The notes beneath the pieces were generated by a model that saw nothing but the letters and a program-made list of their open reading frames with translations, did not search any database and was not told the origin of the DNA. Shown here piece after piece: positions 5,739-49,246 of a stretch of DNA of 49,246 nt (position 1 is the stretch's first letter; the number at the start of each line of letters is the position of its first letter). This DNA comes from a virus. The position numbers and the translations under genes were made by a program. Location of the stretch: positions 1-49,246 of the IMG/VR virus record IMGVR_UViG_3300028920_000009. The stretch is one strand, 5' to 3'.

Positions 5739-6307
5739 GCGAAAAAGTGCCGGAAAAGAAGCCAAAGACAACTTCGGTAACGCGCAAGCGCCCACCTCGT
5801 GACGACAACGACTACCCGATACGCGTGGTCTGGAATGCGATCGGCGACAAGATCACGAATCATGAGGCGCGAATTATCACGATGTCGATGTACATGTCCA
5901 ACACCACGCTGGCGAAAGAGCTTGGCGTGCGGCTTTCGTACATTGAGCATGTGATTGCAAAGGCCAAGAAATTTGTGCCGGACCTGCGTGATTTGCGGCG
6001 CAAGATGGTGGCGAACGACGCGCGGCGCAAACAGTTACTTGCGCTGCAAAGGTACGATCCCGACTTGATCCCGGACAAGCAACACCACCAGATACCTCGG
6101 AACATCCAGATTCTTGACGAGATTGCCCGCGAAAACGAGGAAAAGCTTGGCACGAAGGCCGGATCAGCGGACGAGATTGAAGAAACGCTGGTAATTTTTC
6201 GGAAGAAATATCGCACAAATGAGGGTGATGCGGATCCAGTAAGTGCGGCACGGGACGTGAGTTCGGAGATTATCGATGTGTCCGGAGACGAAAACGAGCC
6301 CGAATGA
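5735..6307 (+). CDS. terS: Putative terminase small subunit (190 aa)
   Basis: The ATG at 5735 overlaps the previous stop. After a basic N-terminus (EKKPKTTSVTRKRPPR) there is a helix-turn-helix-like segment (about residues 50-75: SNTTLAKELGVRLSYIEHVI) resembling the DNA-binding domain of small terminases, and an acidic C-terminal tail. In phages of this type the small subunit recognises the packaging site and hands DNA to the large subunit. The call rests on HTH plus position directly before the large subunit, with a 32-bp overlap. Confidence 0.6.
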   Translation: MSEKVPEKKPKTTSVTRKRPPRDDNDYPIRVVWNAIGDKITNHEARIITMSMYMSNTTLAKELGVRLSYIEHVIAKAKKFVPDLRDLRRKMVANDARRKQLLALQRYDPDLIPDKQHHQIPRNIQILDEIARENEEKLGTKAGSADEIEETLVIFRKKYRTNEGDADPVSAARDVSSEIIDVSGDENEPE

Positions 6308-8069
6308 AACCGACGTTGTTCAGTTGCGGATAGGCAGGGAACTTTTTACCTGGCCGCAATCGGATTTGGACAACGACGCGGTACTGGCGCGACAGGTAGC
6401 GAGCACCGCCAAGGCATTAAAGAGCAACCCGCTACAGTTTTTTGCGCCGCATGGCGAGGCCAAGATAGCGGAGGACGGCGGTTTCCAGTTGGTTTCTGCG
6501 GTGGACTACCTGAACGACGACACGCACAGCGTTTGCATGAACAAGGCCCCGAACAGGACAGGCAAAACGTGCATGAACGTGGTGAAGGGGGCGCTCCGCA
6601 TCTGTCGGTGCAACCCGAAATGGCTGATATTCAGGGAACATGGCGTCAAGTGTCCCGACTGGGATGGCCCGAAAACACTGCTGGTGATGGGTTATGACCA
6701 AGGTTTTTTGATCCGTGTGCTCTGGCCGGAGCTGCAAAAGTGGCTGCCGGACTATGAACTTGGCGCATTCCGCAGCCCGCAGAATGGCGGAACCCGTCAT
6801 CCGTCCTGGTCGGCGCACCCGATGATCACGTTGGCAAAGAGCAAGAGCACGATTATTTTCCTGAACTACGACCAGAGCGCGTCTGTCGGTGCCGGCGTGT
6901 TGGCGCATTATGTGATCCCTGATGAGCAGATGCCGCTGAGTTTTTTCAACGAAATAGACGAACGCGGGCGCACGATTGGAGGGATCAAGTGGTATTTTGG
7001 GTACACACCGCACAAGGTAGATGGGCGCCCTGACAGTGGTGCAGATTCGTTCTTGGAAGACATGTGGTCTGGTCGCGATACGCGAGGACACAGTGTGTTG
7101 CGTATGCGGTGTTCGATTGACGAGGTACCGGATTACATCTACTCGAGAGAGCAAAAACAGGCTGCGTACAGGAAGTGGGTGGAAGGACCGGAAAAGACTG
7201 GTGATACAGCAGCTAAGCGCGAAGGGTTGGCCCGATACTACGGCATTGCGCAGCAACCCGCAGACCTGTTCTACCCTGAGTTCAACCGGCTGTATCACGT
7301 GATACACGTTTCGTGGGAGGATCTGCGGGATCGTCCCGGCCGGCACTTCCGTTACATGGACTACGGGCATAGCGCGCCGACTGTATGCCTATTTTGCTGG
7401 ATGAGCAACTTTGGTGATGTGGTGATATATGACGAGTATTACGTCAAGGGCAAGGACGCCTACGACCACGCAGCGGCGATCATAGAGCGTAGCGGCAACT
7501 CGCGGCGTAAGGGTGATGTGGTTGGCCCGCGTGGTCACGCTGTCAACGTCACGACCTACGAGGAGGTATCTGACCGGCAACGGTACGAACGGACGGTACT
7601 GGACCACCATTGCTTTGAGCAACCGAGTGGGGGCGGCATTACGGTAGCGCAGTGGTTCAGAATGGGCGGGTTGCCGGTCATAACGAGCACGACGGCTGAT
7701 ATTATCCCGCGCAGCGCGAATTTGCGGATGCTGTTTAGGATCAACCAGGACAGGGAACACTTCGCCACGAAAGAGTTGGGGGCACCGCGGCTTTACATCA
7801 GCGACAGATGTGAATGGAGCGTGCACGAACTGCTGAACTGTCGCAGGGCCATCCGCAAGCATGGCGAGGACCAACACAACCCGAAAGAGACGCGCCAGGA
7901 GAAAAACGATCACGCGATAGATGCGATGGAGTACATGGCCTGTGACGTGGTCCGTATGGTCACGATAACGCCAAGGCACATGAAAATTAGCGACAAGAGC
8001 GCACGCAGAGCGCAAAAAAGGAGAAGTGGCCATGAAGGGATCGCGCAAGTGGGCAGAGGACGTGCATAG
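6276..8069 (+). CDS. terL: Terminase large subunit (597 aa)
   Basis: The packaging motor. It uses ATP to push DNA into the procapsid and cuts the concatemer. Residues 93-98 (NRTGKT) form the Walker A loop, and the stretch YVIPDEQMP is a plausible Walker B with its catalytic Glu. The C-terminal nuclease domain carries YMDYGHSAPT (first acidic residue), DEYYVKG and the late NDHAIDAMEYM motif, as in RNase H-like terminase nucleases. The length is usual for the family. ATG 6276 has GGAG seven bases upstream and lies inside the small-subunit gene, so the two are translationally coupled. Confidence 0.9.
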   Translation: MCPETKTSPNETDVVQLRIGRELFTWPQSDLDNDAVLARQVASTAKALKSNPLQFFAPHGEAKIAEDGGFQLVSAVDYLNDDTHSVCMNKAPNRTGKTCMNVVKGALRICRCNPKWLIFREHGVKCPDWDGPKTLLVMGYDQGFLIRVLWPELQKWLPDYELGAFRSPQNGGTRHPSWSAHPMITLAKSKSTIIFLNYDQSASVGAGVLAHYVIPDEQMPLSFFNEIDERGRTIGGIKWYFGYTPHKVDGRPDSGADSFLEDMWSGRDTRGHSVLRMRCSIDEVPDYIYSREQKQAAYRKWVEGPEKTGDTAAKREGLARYYGIAQQPADLFYPEFNRLYHVIHVSWEDLRDRPGRHFRYMDYGHSAPTVCLFCWMSNFGDVVIYDEYYVKGKDAYDHAAAIIERSGNSRRKGDVVGPRGHAVNVTTYEEVSDRQRYERTVLDHHCFEQPSGGGITVAQWFRMGGLPVITSTTADIIPRSANLRMLFRINQDREHFATKELGAPRLYISDRCEWSVHELLNCRRAIRKHGEDQHNPKETRQEKNDHAIDAMEYMACDVVRMVTITPRHMKISDKSARRAQKRRSGHEGIAQVGRGRA

Positions 8070-8358
8070 CATGTGGCTGGGGCCGTTCACTGAATGGGAC
8101 GACCTGCAACCAGAACAGCGTGAATCGCTGGTCGATTGGCTACATACACCGCCGGCCAGAACGTTCTTTTTGCTGTTCGCCGCTCAAGTGCGCAAGGTGG
8201 CGCTGCGGTCCGTGGACCAGGTGCAGATAGCATTGCGGAACGGTGAAGAAGGGAACGCTGGGTTGATCAGCGGTGAGCAGAGCGGCTGGCGTAGAGCGTT
8301 TATGTGGGCAAACGGGGTGAAAGCAGGCAAGCCGGGGAAGGAGTTGACCAATGGGTAA
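8032..8358 (+). CDS. Conserved phage hypothetical protein (108 aa)
   Basis: ATG 8032 follows AAGGAG at eight bases; a GTG at 8026 is less likely. The product is small and helical (WDDLQPEQRESLVDWL, VRKVALRSVDQVQIAL). It overlaps the end of the terminase gene by 38 bp and the next gene by 8 bp. No domain recognised. A small head- or packaging-associated protein is the likeliest guess from location. Confidence 0.6.
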   Translation: MKGSRKWAEDVHSMWLGPFTEWDDLQPEQRESLVDWLHTPPARTFFLLFAAQVRKVALRSVDQVQIALRNGEEGNAGLISGEQSGWRRAFMWANGVKAGKPGKELTNG

Positions 8359-9229
8359 AGTCTCAGTAGTCGGGTTCAAGCCGATAAAGGGCTGGGTACA
8401 CGTACATCGTGAGCCACCACAGATCAAGGATGACGGCATATTTATACCCGAAATAGCCCAATTTGCTGGGTTTATTGCCGAAGTCTTGGGTAAGGGCGGC
8501 GAGGTCGATGATGATCGGTACGATTACGGCGACAAGATCGTTGTCCGCCCGAACGAGACGTTTCTGCCGTTCCACGACTCGTTGATGGCGGTTACCCGTG
8601 CCCGGACGATCATGGCCAAGCTGGCCGGAATCGCGGGCATGGAGGAGATTCATCCGCTGAACGGGTACGTGCTGGTAAGTCCTGACGCGAAGATTGAGTC
8701 TATCGGTGATGTGAATTTGCCTGACAAGGCCCAGAAAATGCGGTTTACGGGGGTTGTGACGAGGATATCAACAGAGTTGATCGAACATGACGAGAACAAA
8801 ATCGAAGTTGGCTCTAGGCTGGTGTACAACCCATTCAAGGCGTTTCCATGCATTGAGGCTGGGCATGAGATGCACCTGATTAACGATGCTATGGCGGTAG
8901 AGGAGGGTGAAAACGTGCGACCGATTGGGCAAATTATACTCGTTGAGGTAGACAAGCCAGAGCAAAAGCTGATTGTGTTGCCTGGCCAGAAGGGGTTAGC
9001 GTTGCCGAGCGCGCCTAATGTGGTGTTGCCAGAACAGAGTGTACGGCCGCAGCCGACGGGAATTGTCAGGGGTATCGGGAATGAGGTCAAAACGACCGAA
9101 CTGGCTGTAGGCGATACAGTGTTGCTGCGCCAGACGAGTACTGGTTCGGCCAACCCCGGTACGCAGTACGACCCAGACAACGAATACCTGCGGCTGGTCC
9201 ACGAGAATGACGTGATTGGGAAGTTCTGA
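8351..9229 (+). CDS. Triple GroES-like (Cpn10) domain protein (292 aa)
   Basis: The protein reads as three successive co-chaperonin-like beta-barrel units at about residues 1-95, 96-188 and 189-292. Each has the P-x-G-x-V/I opening (KPIKGWVHV, HPLNGYVLV, RPIGQIILV), an LP or IP turn where GroES has its mobile-loop IVLP (GIFIP, VNLP, VVLP), a G-V/I-V glycine turn (GFIAEVLGKGG, GVVTRI, GIVRGIGNEV), a GD/GS step (YGDKIVV, VGSRLVY, VGDTVLL) and a closing V-x-x-x-D-I-like end. GroES caps GroEL. Phage versions such as T4 gp31 adapt it for capsid folding. Fusion of three domains is unusual. No GroEL gene is present, so it would work with the host chaperonin. Confidence 0.65.
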   Translation: MGKVSVVGFKPIKGWVHVHREPPQIKDDGIFIPEIAQFAGFIAEVLGKGGEVDDDRYDYGDKIVVRPNETFLPFHDSLMAVTRARTIMAKLAGIAGMEEIHPLNGYVLVSPDAKIESIGDVNLPDKAQKMRFTGVVTRISTELIEHDENKIEVGSRLVYNPFKAFPCIEAGHEMHLINDAMAVEEGENVRPIGQIILVEVDKPEQKLIVLPGQKGLALPSAPNVVLPEQSVRPQPTGIVRGIGNEVKTTELAVGDTVLLRQTSTGSANPGTQYDPDNEYLRLVHENDVIGKF

Positions 9230-9840
9230 TGAAAGACATAATCCTGTTCGGGGTGCCATTCGGGCGAGAGAGTTGCACGCAGATGTTCGCGCTGGCATGT
9301 TGCGAGACGATCTGGCCGATGCCGCACGTGAAGTGCTGGACGACCGGATGGGCGACCACCGGGGCGTGTAACCGGATGGCCCACGAAGCGCTTACAAATG
9401 AGTTCAAGTGGACGCTGATAGCGGCAAATGACGTGGGATGGGAACCGATGGCCATTCAAAAGCTGATGCGGCACGACAAGGATATTGTTGGTGGGTGGGG
9501 ATTGGGGCGTATGCACCCACACGTTAGCCACACAGCAGATGCGTTTGATCCGAAAACAGGGCTATTTCGCAGGGCTCCCGTACGAGAGCACGGTTTGCAG
9601 AAGGTGGCTGCGTTCGGGGGTGGACTCTGGCTGATCAAGACTGAAGTGTTCAAGCGGATACCATATCCGTGGTTCGAATGGACGGAATTGCCGATAGGCG
9701 TATGGACCAGGACCGAAGACTATGCGTTTTCGCACAAGGCGCAGGCATACGGGTTCGACATCTACGTGGACTGGGATGTGAACGTTCCGCACTTGGCGAC
9801 CGGCTACTACACAAAAGGCAAGAGGGTGTATATGCGATAG
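9229..9840 (+). CDS. Glycosyltransferase-like protein (203 aa)
   Basis: Starts in the TGATG overlap with the previous gene. It fits the short GT-A fold glycosyltransferases found in many phages: residues LIAANDVGWEP occupy the place of the DxD nucleotide-sugar site. They are followed by a KLMRHDKDIVGG helix, the GGGLWLIKTEVFKRI strand-helix, a WTRTEDYAFSHKAQ motif with the acidic pair, and a VDWDVNVPHL end with a metal-binding type His. Substrate is unknown. It could modify DNA, capsid or host surface glycans. The canonical DxD is replaced by ND. Confidence 0.65.
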   Translation: MKDIILFGVPFGRESCTQMFALACCETIWPMPHVKCWTTGWATTGACNRMAHEALTNEFKWTLIAANDVGWEPMAIQKLMRHDKDIVGGWGLGRMHPHVSHTADAFDPKTGLFRRAPVREHGLQKVAAFGGGLWLIKTEVFKRIPYPWFEWTELPIGVWTRTEDYAFSHKAQAYGFDIYVDWDVNVPHLATGYYTKGKRVYMR

Positions 9841-14325: not shown

Positions 14326-15237
14326 ATGGCTAGACTTACAGGAAACTTTCCGTACGCCTTGGATGCGCGGGTGAACAAGTACTTCTTCCAGAATCTTGCC
14401 GCCTGGCCGAAAGAGTACCCGGCATGGTGCATGGTACAATCTTCGACCGATCCTGACGTGCGGATGAGCGCCGCATCGGAGCTTCCGATGCCTGGTGCTG
14501 TCGGTGAAAACGAAACCTTTCCCGAGACTCGTTTCGTGGAAGGACCGCTGCAGACGATCAACTGGACGAAGTATGGCTTCAGGTTGATTGCGTCTGAGGA
14601 GTTGATTGACGATAACCTGTTTGGCCTGCTGGACAAAGCTGCGGCTGCGTGCGGCAGGGCGCTGGCGCATCGTCTAGAAACTCAGGGTGCATATGATCTC
14701 GTGAATTCCTTTACCGGCACATGGCTGACGGTGAATGGATCTGCCGAGTATTTGTGCCAGGAGAACCATGCTGCATGGACCAACTCCGGCGGGAACACGC
14801 AGTCGAACATGCCTTCGACAGATGTGACGCTTGGCGTCGATAGCCTTTGGGCCGCAGTGAACAACTTCGCGGGCCTTGAGGACAACGCTGGCAATCCCGC
14901 CATGGAGATTGCCGATGAGCTGATCATCGAAGCGACGAACAAGCGTACTGCGGTTGAGGTTCTGCGGAGCGACAAGGTCGCTTACAAATCCACCAACACA
15001 ATGAATGCGATTCGCGATGAAGGCCTGACCTATAAGATCGGGCATTACCTCACGAGCACAACTGCGTGGTGGGTTCGCTCGAGGCGCAAACCGGTGTATT
15101 TCTACTTCCGGTGGCAGCCGAGAGTGCAGGTTGAGAACACCATCTCAACGCAAAGCAGGGCGTGGCAGATTTCCTGCCGTATTGGGCATGCGGCGTACGA
15201 TTGGCGTCCCCTCTACGGCACGGATGGTGCTGCCTAA
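14326..15237 (+). CDS. Major capsid protein, HK97 fold (303 aa)
   Basis: The shell subunit. The N-terminus (NFPYALDARVNKYFFQNL) begins a short helix. The middle has ETRFVEGPLQTINWTKYGFRLIASEELIDDN, a typical E-loop/spine transition, and the end (AWQISCRIGHAAYDWRPLYG) resembles Mu gpT-like major head subunits. Length, position after scaffold and decoration, and its own downstream hairpin support the call. Confidence 0.75.
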   Translation: MARLTGNFPYALDARVNKYFFQNLAAWPKEYPAWCMVQSSTDPDVRMSAASELPMPGAVGENETFPETRFVEGPLQTINWTKYGFRLIASEELIDDNLFGLLDKAAAACGRALAHRLETQGAYDLVNSFTGTWLTVNGSAEYLCQENHAAWTNSGGNTQSNMPSTDVTLGVDSLWAAVNNFAGLEDNAGNPAMEIADELIIEATNKRTAVEVLRSDKVAYKSTNTMNAIRDEGLTYKIGHYLTSTTAWWVRSRRKPVYFYFRWQPRVQVENTISTQSRAWQISCRIGHAAYDWRPLYGTDGAA

Positions 15238-39886: not shown

Positions 39887-40330
39887 TCAATTCCTTATTT
39901 TGAGAAATTGCCGGAGCTTTGTGCTCCAGTTACGGTCGTTTAAGCCGACCAATAGATCCGCGAACCCATACATCACGTCCCACTCGCCCTTTGGGAATTC
40001 GCCGAGAATCACAAGACGTTTCCCTTGGCCGACTGCATACCCCGCTTCTAGGTGTGCGCTGCGTCCACACGGCAGCACCATAATGACCGTATCAGCCCAG
40101 TCCAACCACTTCTTGTCCTCCGCGAACGCTTTCCGACATTGCGGCGTTTTCATCATGTCGAACTGGTCGATGTTCTCTGCATTGTCTATATCCCGAAACG
40201 AGAATACGAATCGGCCTGTATCCTCGCGACAGAAACAGTCAACTTCGTTACCCCAAATTTCCAATGTAACCGCAAAGGGCGGTAGTATGTCGGCGTTTTT
40301 CCAACTTGATGCAATGTAGATCCGGCTCAT
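39887..40330 (-). CDS. Nucleoside 2-deoxyribosyltransferase-like protein (147 aa)
   Basis: Overlaps the preceding gene by ATGA. The core pattern (RIYIASSWKNADIL at the start, WADTVIMVLPCGRSAHLEAGYAVGQGKRLVILGE) is that of phage nucleoside deoxyribosyltransferase-like proteins, where S-A-H-x-E-x-G holds the catalytic Glu. They move deoxyribose between bases and help salvage or make modified nucleotides. The enzyme may feed replication or DNA modification. Assignment from motif. Confidence 0.65.
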   Translation of the reverse strand: MSRIYIASSWKNADILPPFAVTLEIWGNEVDCFCREDTGRFVFSFRDIDNAENIDQFDMMKTPQCRKAFAEDKKWLDWADTVIMVLPCGRSAHLEAGYAVGQGKRLVILGEFPKGEWDVMYGFADLLVGLNDRNWSTKLRQFLKIRN

Positions 40331-41502
40331 AGGTCTGCGCCTCCTCTCTGCTTCGCCAGCACCTGCAACACCGTTGTCTTGTGAGACAGAATCTCCAGCC
40401 CTTTCCGCATAGCGCCGAACTCGCCGAGCACGCAGACGCCTTCCTGCGCGCGCGTGATGGCCGTGTAGATCAGCTCGCGCGTCAGCATGTGGCTGTGCCG
40501 ATAGTGGCAAAGGAAGATCACCCGGCGGAACTGCGAACCCTGGCTCTTGTGCACGCTCAGGCAATACGCGTGGATCAGGTGCTTTCTTTTATCGGCGTCA
40601 ATCTCGATGGGCTCGCCCGGCCGCCGGTCCAGCTCGACCTGCAAATATCTGTCTCGCATGCCGGAACCGATCACCGTGCCGATGTCGCCGTTCCAATAGT
40701 CGGCCTGCGCGAAGTTCTGCGTGTTCATCACCCTGTCCCCGCCCGACCACGTCTCGCCCTTCAGCGACGGGTTGACAATCGCCTTGACCGCGCGGTTGAT
40801 CGCGTGGATGCCACCGTCGTTTTTCTCGGGGTCGCCGTATTGCGGTGCGAGGATCACGTCGTGCGTGAAGTCCATCAGGCCGTCGCGGGTCCACTGCTCG
40901 ATGAGTGCTTGGCTCTTGTGGATGTTTTTCGTTTCGCGCACGGTCCACGATTCGCCGCCGCCGCGAAACGACTGGCGCGGGATGTCGCCATCGCGGATCA
41001 TCTGTGATGCTTTGTGGATCGCGCCGCTCGCGCGGTAGCAGGTCGTGAGCGTCCATGTCTGGTCGGGGCAGAGCGTGATCAGATCATGGAACGGCTGACC
41101 CTTCCCGACCGGCGGGAGCTGCGCGCGGTCGCCGACAAGGATCAGCTGCGGCGGCTTGTACTCAAGCAGCCGGGCCATCAGCCACGAGTCGACCATGCTG
41201 GCCTCGTCGATGATCACCGGGCCCCGCAGATTGTCGGCGTGCCGGCGCATGAAAATCGAACCGTTCCAGCCAAGCTCGCGGTGGATCGTGTGCGCTTGGT
41301 AGCCGGTCGCCTCTTTGAGCCGGGCCGCCGCCTTGCCGGTCGGTGCCATCAGGATCGGCTCGTGACCGTATTTGATGAGGTAGCGCGTCAGCTCGGCGAT
41401 GAGGGTCGTCTTGCCGGTGCCCGCGCCGCCGGTGATGATGCTGAGCCCGAGCGCCGCGGCGCCTTCGACGGCCGACTGTTGGGATTCGTCAAGGGAGATC
41501 AC
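40327..41502 (-). CDS. RecD2-type helicase, ATPase half (391 aa)
   Basis: I start it at GTG 41502 in a GTGA overlap. The product holds SF1B helicase motifs: GGAGTGKTT (Walker A), VIIDEASMVD (Walker B), LVGDRAQLPPVG, TTCYRASGAIH, LSVHKSQGSQFRRVIF and YTAITRAQEGV. These belong to the C-terminal part of RecD2 helicases, whose N-terminal part is the gene at 41723. It moves 5-prime to 3-prime and probably helps recombination-linked replication. A separate 81-aa gene lies between the halves. Confidence 0.85.
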   Translation of the reverse strand: MISLDESQQSAVEGAAALGLSIITGGAGTGKTTLIAELTRYLIKYGHEPILMAPTGKAAARLKEATGYQAHTIHRELGWNGSIFMRRHADNLRGPVIIDEASMVDSWLMARLLEYKPPQLILVGDRAQLPPVGKGQPFHDLITLCPDQTWTLTTCYRASGAIHKASQMIRDGDIPRQSFRGGGESWTVRETKNIHKSQALIEQWTRDGLMDFTHDVILAPQYGDPEKNDGGIHAINRAVKAIVNPSLKGETWSGGDRVMNTQNFAQADYWNGDIGTVIGSGMRDRYLQVELDRRPGEPIEIDADKRKHLIHAYCLSVHKSQGSQFRRVIFLCHYRHSHMLTRELIYTAITRAQEGVCVLGEFGAMRKGLEILSHKTTVLQVLAKQRGGADL

Positions 41503-41744
41503 TCCACAATCCTTTCGGTTGGTTGCCATCCGTGTTCGCGTGCGCGTTGTGGGGCAAGGAACCATCGATCTAATGCGGATTCAGCTTCTGCATAGGTGGA
41601 AAAATTGACGGGGTTTCCGGTACAGAAATACCAGAGCGCACAATCCCACCACGACCACCAAAGGAATCGCCTCTGCTTGGCAACTCGAAATCGTTGACCA
41701 TTAAACTCGATTCGATATCTACTTACAGCGCGATCATCTTCCAT
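41499..41744 (-). CDS. Trp-rich protein inserted between RecD2 halves (81 aa)
   Basis: ATG 41744 lies 22 bases inside the end of the upstream gene, behind GAGGTGAAG. It encodes 81 residues, Trp-rich (FLWWSWWDCALWYFC) with a basic start and a charged end. It stands in the place of the linker between the N- and C-terminal parts of RecD2, overlaps both, and has no RecD2 similarity. It could be a subunit or an unrelated gene that split the helicase. Confidence 0.55.
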   Translation of the reverse strand: MEDDRAVSRYRIEFNGQRFRVAKQRRFLWWSWWDCALWYFCTGNPVNFSTYAEAESALDRWFLAPQRAREHGWQPTERIVE

Positions 41745-42548
41745 ATCTTCACCTCGTCCTCGTAGTCATCGATCAGCGCGACGTGTTCGTGATCGACCTC
41801 GACAATCCATTTACAGATCATCAGCGTTTTGCACCGCTCGCGAAAACGTTCGCGATCCAGCGGCACGAGTCGACTCAATTCGCCGAACAGATCCTCGCGC
41901 GGGATTGCCGTTCCGTGCGACCGGCTCCGCTCGCGCATGATGTAGAGGATCGCGGCATCCACGCGGCGCGGGTCGTCGTCCTTGATCCCGAGCGAACCGC
42001 GAATCCGAGAGTCAACAACCGCGAATCCGTAGTGCGGCAGCTCGGTCAGGCAATACGGATCTTGCGTCACGCGGGCCTGCGTCGCGAGCCCGAACTTCTC
42101 GAACGCAACCTGCGCCATCCGCATCGTGCAGCCGTGTCCCATCAGCCAAGCGATAGTGTTTGAGCGTTCCTGTTGGTCGTCGATCCGGCGCAGCGTGTCC
42201 TGCCATGCGAACTTTGCTGTGGCCGTGATTCCAGGGATGTCCAGTTCGCGCACGTCGCGCCAGTCTGCGCCGTACTTTTCCCAGATCCGCACAAACGCGG
42301 CCGGGCCGAGCCCGCTGGTGATCGCGCAGGCATACTCCAGCATGTTTTTGGAATCGGTCGGCATGTCCATCGAGCAAGACGCGAAGCAAAATTCCCGCGC
42401 ACCGTTGAACCTGCTCAACTTGTATTCGCCGGTCATTTTGATCTGGTCGTGTTCGCGCGGTTCCCACGGCACGACGCCCTTGCAGCAGCCCTTGTCGGTC
42501 TTCAGGATCGTCCACTGCGAATCGGGTTTGCGGTAGTACCAGACCTGA

Positions 42549-44349
<1,801 letters not shown>

Positions 44350-46962: not shown

Positions 46963-47745
46963 TCAATGGTTGCGCATGAGCTCCCGCAGCATCCGCTCCA
47001 GGAGTCTGTTCTGGTGTTGTTTTTCGACGTACCATGCGTCCCTGGCGGCGTCCCCGACGTTCCCGGCGGCGGCCCTGGCGTCCCTGGCGGCGGCCCTGGC
47101 GTTCCAGGCGGCGACCCTGGCGTTCCTGGCGGCGTCCCCGACGTTCCAGGCGGCGTCCCTGGCGTCCCTGGCGGCGTCCCATGCGCCCCAGGCGGCGTTC
47201 CTGGCGTACCTGGCGGCGTCCTCGGCGGCGTACCTGGCGGCGGCACCGGCGCCCCAGGCGGCGTTCCTGGCGTACCTGGCGGCGTCCTCGGCGGCGGCCC
47301 CGGCGTTCCTGGCGGCGGCTGTAATCTCGTCGGGTGTTGCCGCGTCGTTGACGGACTCAACCGTGGCTGCGACCTCATCCATGCCAACGGCACGGCACGC
47401 GGTAGCGACGTGCACACGTAACGCCCGCAGCGCACAGAGACGTGCCCACTCGATCAGCACCTGGCTCGCATCCACGTAGTCGGTGAGCGTCGTGCGCCGG
47501 CTCGCGGCCCATTTATCGTTATCATGCGGTACAAGCGTGCCCGTCAGTCGCACACGTGCCACATTGCTGCCCGGTGCATCCCGCAATGCGTCGATAGCCC
47601 GCTCTGAGCCATGCAGCCCCTGTTTGCATGGTACCACCGGGCCGTCGTGCTTGATCGTCTCGCCCCGACTGGGCAGAGCACGCCCGTCGCGCAACGTATC
47701 GCCGGCCCAGTGCCAGCACGTGACCTGTTTGCGTTTGGTTGTCAT
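46963..47745 (-). CDS. Ala-rich heptad-repeat protein, copy C (260 aa)
   Basis: Starts MTTKRKQVTCWHWAGDTLRD behind AGGAGATACTGAC. Conserved N-terminal domain as in copies A, B and D (GLHGSERAIDALRDAPG). The central array (AAARYARNAAWGAG, AAWNVGD, AARNARV) has a seven-residue period with many small deletions relative to D. The end is VEKQHQNRLLERMLRELMRNH. Last gene of the accessory operon. Function unknown; the family resembles DUF7666. Confidence 0.8.
   Translation of the reverse strand: MTTKRKQVTCWHWAGDTLRDGRALPSRGETIKHDGPVVPCKQGLHGSERAIDALRDAPGSNVARVRLTGTLVPHDNDKWAASRRTTLTDYVDASQVLIEWARLCALRALRVHVATACRAVGMDEVAATVESVNDAATPDEITAAARNAGAAAEDAARYARNAAWGAGAAARYAAEDAARYARNAAWGAWDAARDARDAAWNVGDAARNARVAAWNARAAARDARAAAGNVGDAARDAWYVEKQHQNRLLERMLRELMRNH
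47436..47562. repeat. Third copy of the 127-bp terminal repeat
   Basis: Identical to 1-127 and 49120-49246. It shows that the repeat is part of the gene-family conserved region and that the ends could be joined wrongly. Confidence 0.9.
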
Positions 47746-47762
47746 GTCAGTATCTCCTGTGC

Positions 47763-48584
47763 CTATCCGTTCGCTCTAAGCCGTTCCCGCAGCATCCGCT
47801 CCAGGAGCCCGTTCTGCCATGCCTTTTCCTTGGCGTACATGGCGGCCCCGGCGACCCCGGTGGCCCCGGCGTCCCTGGCGGCCCTGGCGGCCCTGGCGTC
47901 CCCGGCGGCGACCCTGGCGTTCCTGGCGGCGACCCTGGCGTTCCTGGCGGCGTCCCCGACGTTCCAGGCGGCGTCCCCGACGTTCCAGGCGGCGTCCCCG
48001 ACGTTCCAGGCGGCGTCCCCGGCGTCCATGGCGGCGTTCCCGGCGGCCATGGCGGCGTACCTGGCGTCCATGGCGGCGTCCCCGACGTTCCAGGCGGCGT
48101 TCCTGGCGGCGTCCCCGACGTTCCTGGCGGCGGCCATGGCGGCGTTCCTGGCGGCGGCTGTAATCTCGTCGAGTGTTGCCGCGTCGTTGACGGACTCGGC
48201 CTTGGCTGCGACCTCATCCATACCAACGGCACGGCACGCGGTAGCGACGTGCACACGTAACGCCCGCAGCGCACAGAGACGTGCCCACTCGATCAGCACC
48301 TGGCTCGCATCCACGTAGTCGGTGAGCATCGTGCGCTGGCTCGCGGCCCATTTATCGTTATCATGCGGTACAAGCGTGCCCGTCAGTCGCACGCGCGCTA
48401 CATTGCTGCCCGGTGCATATTCAAGCGCGTCAACTACCTGCTCTGAGCCGTGCAGCCCGTTCTTGCACGGCACCACCGGCCCGTCGTGCTTGATCGTCTC
48501 GCCCCGACTGGGCAGAGCACGCCCGTCGCGCAACGTATCGCCGGCCCAGTGCCAGCACGTGACCTGTTTGCGTTTGGTTGTCAT
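47763..48584 (-). CDS. Ala-rich heptad-repeat protein, copy D (273 aa)
   Basis: Starts MTTKRKQVTCWHWAGDTLRD at 48584. N-terminal domain as in C but with HGSEQVVDALEYAPG. The array contains three identical 21-base units encoding GDAAWNV near 47955-48016, and the end is WQNGLLERMLRERLRANG. Only 17 bases separate it from the neighbouring paralogues, so A, D and C form one tandem unit. Confidence 0.8.
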   Translation of the reverse strand: MTTKRKQVTCWHWAGDTLRDGRALPSRGETIKHDGPVVPCKNGLHGSEQVVDALEYAPGSNVARVRLTGTLVPHDNDKWAASQRTMLTDYVDASQVLIEWARLCALRALRVHVATACRAVGMDEVAAKAESVNDAATLDEITAAARNAAMAAARNVGDAARNAAWNVGDAAMDARYAAMAAGNAAMDAGDAAWNVGDAAWNVGDAAWNVGDAARNARVAARNARVAAGDARAARAARDAGATGVAGAAMYAKEKAWQNGLLERMLRERLRANG

Positions 48585-48601
48585 GTCAGTATCTCCTGTG
48601 C

Positions 48602-49246
48602 CTATCCGTTCGCTCTAAGCCGTTCCCGCAGCATCCGCTCCAGGAGCCCGTTCTGCCATGCCTTTTCCTTGGCGTACATGGCGGCCCCGGCGACCCCGGT
48701 GGCCCCGGCGTCCCTGGCGGCGGCCCTGGCGTTCCAGGCGGCGACCCTGGCGTTCCTGGCGGCGTCCCCGACGTTCCAGGCGGCGTCCCCGACGTTCCAG
48801 GCGGCGTCCCCGACGTTCCCGGCGGCGTCCCTGGCGTCCCTGGCGGCGTCCCATGCGCCCCAGGCGGCGTTCCTGGCGTTCCTGGCGGCGTCCCCGACGT
48901 TCCAGGCGGCGTTCCTGGCGGCGTCCCCGACGTTCCTGGCGGCGGCCATGGCGGCGTCCCCGACGTTCCTGGCGGCGGCCATGGCGGCGTTCCTGGCGGC
49001 GGCTGTAATCTCGTCGAGTGTTGCCGCGTCGTTGACGGACTCAACCGTGGCTGCGACCTCATCCATGCCAACGGCACGGCACGCGGTAGCGACGTGCACA
49101 CGTAACGCCCGCAGCGCACAGAGACGTGCCCACTCGATCAGCACCTGGCTCGCATCCACGTAGTCGGTGAGCGTCGTGCGCCGGCTCGCGGCCCATTTAT
49201 CGTTATCATGCGGTACAAGCGTGCCCGTCAGTCGCACACGTGCCAC
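48602..49246 (-). CDS. Ala-rich heptad-repeat protein, copy A (C-terminal part; continues at base 128)
   Basis: Open at the window edge. On a circle it continues to 310 and gives 275 residues. It carries the conserved YVDASQVLIEWARLCALRAL segment, a heptad array (AARNVGD, AAWNVGD) and the same C-terminal end as D (WQNGLLERMLRERLRANG). The N-terminal part matches B while the C-terminal part matches D, so either recombination or a false join made this chimera. Confidence 0.7.
   Translation of the reverse strand: MARVRLTGTLVPHDNDKWAASRRTTLTDYVDASQVLIEWARLCALRALRVHVATACRAVGMDEVAATVESVNDAATLDEITAAARNAAMAAARNVGDAAMAAARNVGDAARNAAWNVGDAARNARNAAWGAWDAARDARDAAGNVGDAAWNVGDAAWNVGDAARNARVAAWNARAAARDAGATGVAGAAMYAKEKAWQNGLLERMLRERLRANG
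49120..49246. repeat. Terminal direct repeat, right copy
   Basis: Identical to 1-127; see the left copy. Confidence 0.85.

Follow-up and report, generated by a model that had tools for sequence, protein, structure and literature searches.

The sequence analysed here, hereafter the window, is the whole of IMG/VR record IMGVR_UViG_3300028920_000009, 49,246 bases that are typed as linear and are possibly incomplete. On its plus strand lies a gene for the terminase large subunit (TerL, 6276-8069), which is supported by a PHROG terminase match and by a Terminase_6C match with an E-value of 0.0014 that is under the family cut-off. It is followed by a small open reading frame (8026-8358, plus strand), by a gene for a protein of 292 amino acids (8351-9229, plus strand) that is the subject of this report, and by the portal gene (10464/10470-12569, plus strand). 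The 292-amino acid reading frame starts with ATG and has a Shine-Dalgarno sequence 7 nt upstream (AAGGAG, 8338-8343, plus strand; anti-SD duplex -8.3 kcal/mol). The portal reading frame has no direct family match in Pfam or PHROGs and is assigned by its position and by homology, being 50% identical to the product of L003:8025-10145 on the contig of a related virus. The major capsid protein is encoded further along the plus strand, at 14326-15237 (Phage_capsid_4 E=3.6e-8; PHROG major head E=1.1e-10). The position between terminase and portal, as read in the initial annotation, is thus confirmed. The reading frame next to our gene, at 9229-9840, matches phrog_1574 (E=5e-12; function unknown in PHROGs) and gives a weak hint of an Anp1 glycosyltransferase; a similar gene occupies the same place in L003.

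As a whole, the 292-amino acid protein matches the Pfam Cpn10 family (PF00166) in two stretches with E=1.5e-16 and 60.6 bits, against a cut-off of 21.1, and a PHROGs search returns the co-chaperonin GroES (phrog_3188, E=7e-12). The initial annotation had proposed three consecutive GroES-like units in this one gene and a Cpn10 profile search by thirds as a means of checking them. Scanned singly, the middle (E=2.4e-7) and last (E=1e-7) thirds are each above the cut-off alone, but the first third has no match to PF00166, so that by this measure more evidence was needed for domain 1. That evidence is carried by relatives, since PF00166 matches domain 1 directly in two-domain homologues (G002:8269-8511, 29 bits; G010:6335-6574, 27 bits). 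Comparison by hhalign with 15 GroES sequences gives E=2e-12 for domain 1 (using a profile of 11 sequences), 1.7e-15 for domain 2 and 9e-8 for domain 3, with scores of 65.7, 73.8 and 44.7, respectively, against maxima of 22.3, 17.1 and 18.7 in shuffled controls (columns permuted, 100 for each domain profile).

Domain 1 comprises residues 1-96 (8351-8638, plus strand; profile against GroES), with the loop motif GIFIP at residues 29-33, and domain 2 residues 97-183 (8639-8899, plus strand; PF00166 and profile), with the loop motif VNLP at residues 121-124. Domain 3 comprises residues 189-292 (8915-9226, plus strand; PF00166 E=3e-7 on this stretch alone) and is identical in extent to a predicted stand-alone product of 104 amino acids. 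The units were first put at some 95 residues each; they are about 85-105 amino acids long, and domain 3 is the longest because of its longer mobile loop. With profiles, the L003 homologue, fold prediction and synteny in agreement, the reading frame almost certainly encodes three Cpn10/GroES domains fused head to tail.

No significant match to the three-domain protein came from direct tblastn against phages (E up to 10) and plasmids (E up to 1), or from a direct scan of the virus collection; relatives were found via the terminase and portal rather than via the GroES protein. The portal led to L003, which shares 50% identity with the window in both portal and terminase and has, in the same place (L003:5947-6828), a three-domain homologue of 293 amino acids that is 41% identical over its full length. 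Terminase alignments led to 13 more contigs, in which a reading frame of 175-190 amino acids soon after the terminase has two domains. PF00166 matches both domains in 8 of the 13, among them L007 and L010, and the two-domain reading frame of L016 has two PF00166 stretches (1.3e-17 overall); in the remainder Pfam recognises one domain and the alignment spans both. L015 passes weakly (21.9 bits). As L013/L014, L016/L017 and L018-L020 are near-copies, the contigs represent about nine distinct two-domain phages. Terminase relatives 42-50% identical to TerL of the window have the tandem GroES as neighbour gene, and the order of terminase, small open reading frame (81-87 amino acids, present in most), tandem GroES and portal is constant wherever a contig reaches; the cultured phages CRP-345 and ctEqG8, whose terminases are distant, have no Cpn10. 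The presence of the L003 homologue in the same place on another virus contig, together with the 13 two-domain contigs, argues that the three-domain gene is no artefact. The two-domain versions in nine relatives, and apparently in gp096 of Cellulophaga phage phi18:3, also overturn the earlier statement that phage co-chaperonins are single-domain.

In a tree of 29 domains, built on short sequences with long branches, all first domains form one clade (support 99/100), all second domains another (95/88), and the two third domains, those of the window and L003 being the only ones in the set, make up a further clade outside both. The two-domain form consequently looks ancestral, and the third domain looks like a C-terminal addition made in the lineage that led to the window and L003. 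Neither its kinship with domain 1 (p=0.375) nor that with domain 2 of the window and L003 (p=0.159) is rejected by AU tests, and these are compatible both with a duplication and with the fusion of a formerly separate gene as the origin of domain 3.

AlphaFold2, given an alignment of 11 sequences, predicts three successive all-beta domains (beta-barrels) with a pLDDT of 70.6 and a pTM of 0.60, a moderate confidence that is lowest in the loops of domains 2 and 3. The structure prediction of the whole protein that had been suggested as a check thus yields three Cpn10-type barrels. From the two three-domain sequences alone the pLDDT was 32.5, rising to 70.6 with the eleven rows. Bacterial GroES rows, tried as a way of deepening the domain 3 alignment, were dropped when MAFFT divided them between domains 1 and 2. 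Against solved structures, Foldseek placed the Cpn20/Cpn23 chains of 7ekq, which have two domains, at the top (E=2e-5). Cpn10 proteins and T4 gp31 (1g31) came next, so that the top matches are all Cpn10-type. The best match in BFVD, A0A516L046 (304 amino acids; TM 0.53/0.51, E=7e-10, 13% identity), extends over the whole length and is possibly another triple; the next matches are proteins of 183-200 amino acids, including the 'Chaperonin cpn10' of Cellulophaga phage phi18:3. The rmsd values of these superpositions are large, and the relative placement of the domains is not to be trusted.

Group I chaperonins are closed by lids of GroES-type domains, and the gene probably encodes a phage co-chaperonin, judging from its sequence and modelled fold. 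None of the 15 records examined, all possibly partial, contains a Cpn60/GroEL, and host GroEL is therefore the presumed partner. During infection the phage protein would replace or supplement host GroES on host GroEL and help to fold abundant phage structural proteins, of which the capsid protein would be the likeliest client. T4 has such a lid of its own, gp31, which it uses for capsid folding (PMC6318259).

Three does not divide seven, and a three-domain chain faces a symmetry mismatch like that of two-domain Cpn20. The border between domains 2 and 3 bears on how this might be met. Here the window reads GAGGAGGGTGAAAAC GTG, with an internal Shine-Dalgarno sequence AGGAGG (8901-8906, plus strand) before an in-frame GTG (8915-8917, plus strand), and L003 reads CAGGAGGGCAAA ATG (ATG 6502). 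Each of the two codons is in frame and marks the beginning of domain 3, and the products predicted from them, of 104 amino acids in the window and 108 in L003, each match Pfam Cpn10 and amount to a complete single GroES domain. With anti-SD duplexes of -12.5 kcal/mol in the window and -10.8 in L003, these sites are the strongest in their respective genes, above that of the first start. For comparison, among 686 internal in-frame ATG or GTG codons taken from the phages' other genes, 0.15% reach -10.8 or better and none reaches -12.5, and the window site is tied first among 1615 candidate starts on the plus strand between 5.6 and 33.4 kb. For the two-domain genes, the duplexes at genuine starts range mostly from -8.4 to -12.0, and those genes have no Shine-Dalgarno sequence of such strength at the domain boundary. 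The sequence thus suggests that domain 3 would also be made as a single-domain subunit, and we regard a working internal ribosome-binding site with its predicted single-domain product as moderately probable. Two limits apply to these figures. When the EEG/QEG peptides are recoded at random with synonymous codons, an equally strong Shine-Dalgarno sequence results in 24% of trials for the window and 42% for L003; codon choice alone therefore shows no selection for the site beyond the peptide. The two genes are also homologous, so that their internal sites are not independent.

The same observations leave room for a three-domain lid whose internal start is non-functional, in which two chains would form a six-domain ring with one GroEL subunit uncapped or with host GroES as the seventh domain. 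Such a lid would accord with the engineered GroES concatamers of six and eight domains, with which GroEL is functional (Guo et al. 2015, summarised in PMC5780408), and the Shine-Dalgarno sequence would be a product of chance, arising readily from the EEG/QEG peptide, or a relic left by fusion of a once-separate single-domain gene. However, the internal site is the best in both genes despite their identity of 41%, and its strength is like that of genuine starts, and we consider this explanation doubtful. An altered lid symmetry had been considered possible in the initial annotation; the six-domain dimer suggested there has a precedent in the engineered concatamers, but the sequence points instead to an internal single-domain start, and the proposed trimer of nine domains finds no support. 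The reading that we favour, in which a phage lid for host GroEL is joined by an internal single-domain product with which it co-assembles, is moderately probable on the strength of the sequence features described. Full-length and single-domain chains could then combine as two triples and one single, giving seven domains on the GroEL ring. This arrangement has a partial parallel in the chloroplast, where Cpn20 mixes with Cpn10, probably as three Cpn20 and one Cpn10 (PMC4242682). By this analogy a 3+3+1 ring on the seven-fold GroEL is put forward tentatively.

The loops and roof of the three domains are relevant both to binding and to the shape of the chamber. A mobile loop with a hydrophobic tripeptide before P or T is recognisable as IFIP in domain 1 and as IVLP, LALP and VVLP in domain 3, and as a weak VNLP in domain 2. 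GroES binds GroEL by such a hydrophobic tripeptide. The loops of the phage protein would be expected to dock on the GroEL apical domains, as contact of GroES with GroEL is made via the mobile loop (PMC4242682). The domain 1 loop has I-x-[IVL]-P in 11 of 11 members, with I30 and P33 invariant. Domain 3 has a long mobile loop (8972-9031, plus strand): about 35 residues separate strand 195-200 from strand 236-242, and residues 203-230 among them have a pLDDT <50 in the AlphaFold2 model; three motifs are kept in both three-domain proteins (IVLP, LALP, and VVLP or IALP). In GroES and gp31 this loop has 16 and 22 residues, respectively (PMC6318259). The domain 2 motif is variable, VNLP in the window and ILLP in L003, and across the relatives it ranges from the canonical GGIILPD (L016:3957-4499) to the decayed GLFLADK (L007) and GVYLVNA (L009), which suggests that the domains of one chain specialise. 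All three domains are without the residues of the GroES roof beta-hairpin, with gaps of 9 in domain 1 and 7 in domain 3 and gaps in the domain 2 profile too. As gp31 also has no roof, the roof is no requirement of the Cpn10 family, and its absence here may give a larger or open chamber; in gp31 this absence is regarded as creating space for the large T4 capsid protein (PMC6318259). Taking unequal domains and loop together, one gene with two nested products might supply a complete asymmetric 3+3+1 lid in which the unequal domains and the triple-motif loop set the partner for each GroEL subunit, a proposal slightly more speculative than the ring itself.

That the protein serves instead in the structure or assembly of the virion, reusing the barrel with no chaperonin contact, would fit the location of its gene between terminase and portal across the whole group and the decay of the domain 2 motif in several members, but the retention of the domain 1 motif in 11 members and of several motifs in domain 3 would be unexpected in a virion barrel and makes this improbable. 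We consider it very improbable that the protein serves as a cap for a different ring of seven-fold symmetry, for instance that of host ClpP, thereby blocking proteolysis rather than aiding folding. In the best fold match, 7ekq, CPN11/20/23 do indeed cap a ClpP complex of the chloroplast (PMC8889267, which cites a preprint for inhibition of ClpP), but that match reflects the tandem arrangement of Cpn10 folds common to both, and lids of GroEL or mitochondrial Hsp60 make up most of the remaining top PDB matches.

A phage lid for host GroEL may be compared with several known systems. Chloroplast and apicoplast Cpn20 (the 7ekq chains; PfCpn20) share with the window protein the head-to-tail Cpn10 domains and the seven-fold mismatch, but have two domains where the window and L003 proteins have three, belong to a eukaryotic organelle and are weakly similar in sequence (phmmer E=0.001). 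T4 gp31 is likewise a phage-coded lid without roof loops and with an extended mobile loop (22 residues, against about 35 in domain 3), but it has one domain instead of three, forms a homoheptamer and showed no sequence similarity detectable here. The gp31 gene is not known to lie between terminase and portal. In the cultured Cellulophaga phage phi18:3 (NC_021794, L106), gp096 (41458-42060; 200 amino acids, annotated as co-chaperonin GroES) is encoded just before the terminase and portal. The second half of gp096 has a Pfam match (E=8.5e-8). The first half has none and is GroES-like by eye, so that gp096 appears to consist of two GroES-like halves; it differs from the window protein in this number and is too distant for tblastn. 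The same phage has a separate single-domain GroES, gp080 (84 amino acids; NC_021794 31108-31362), a pairing of tandem and single that recalls chloroplast Cpn20 and Cpn10. The single-domain phage GroES proteins (phrog_3188), found in HTVC023P-type pelagiphages, of which GroES is a core gene (PMC9599517), and in others, are also of the Cpn10 family but have one domain per chain.

GroES domains, tandem GroES and phage lids are thus each already known, and what appears to be new is the natural triple and its predicted nested single-domain start; a limited literature search, in which absence is no proof, found no published natural three-domain GroES, tandem phage GroES or nested single-domain start. 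The family would offer natural lids of one, two and three domains with which to probe how a seven-fold chaperonin tolerates other symmetries, a question for which chloroplast Cpn20 and engineered concatamers have so far been the material. Should the internal start be functional, a single gene would provide a genetic solution to the symmetry mismatch, comparable to 4A/4B of phage T7, which are nested proteins.

A comparison with defence systems gave no match. Elsewhere in the window, the minus strand carries a replication block with primase and RecD-like helicase matches. The RecD-like helicase/exonuclease V is spread over two adjacent minus-strand reading frames (40327-42586), with 41723-42586 covering positions 76-300 of the phrog_4412 profile and 40327-41565 covering positions 322-723; the split may be natural, or may stem from an insertion or from an error in the sequence. 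The right end (47036-49246) consists of tandem copies of a unit of 839-845 bp, in which a stretch of 274 nt occurs three times at 95-98% identity. Since the third copy extends up to the record's end, the sequence may have been truncated or collapsed at this point. These units contain collagen-like Gly-X-Pro repeats of the GGC-GTC-CCT type (47036-47319, 47841-48158 and 48680-49003), and a further collagen-like Gly-X-Pro array lies near the left end, at 1125-1342.
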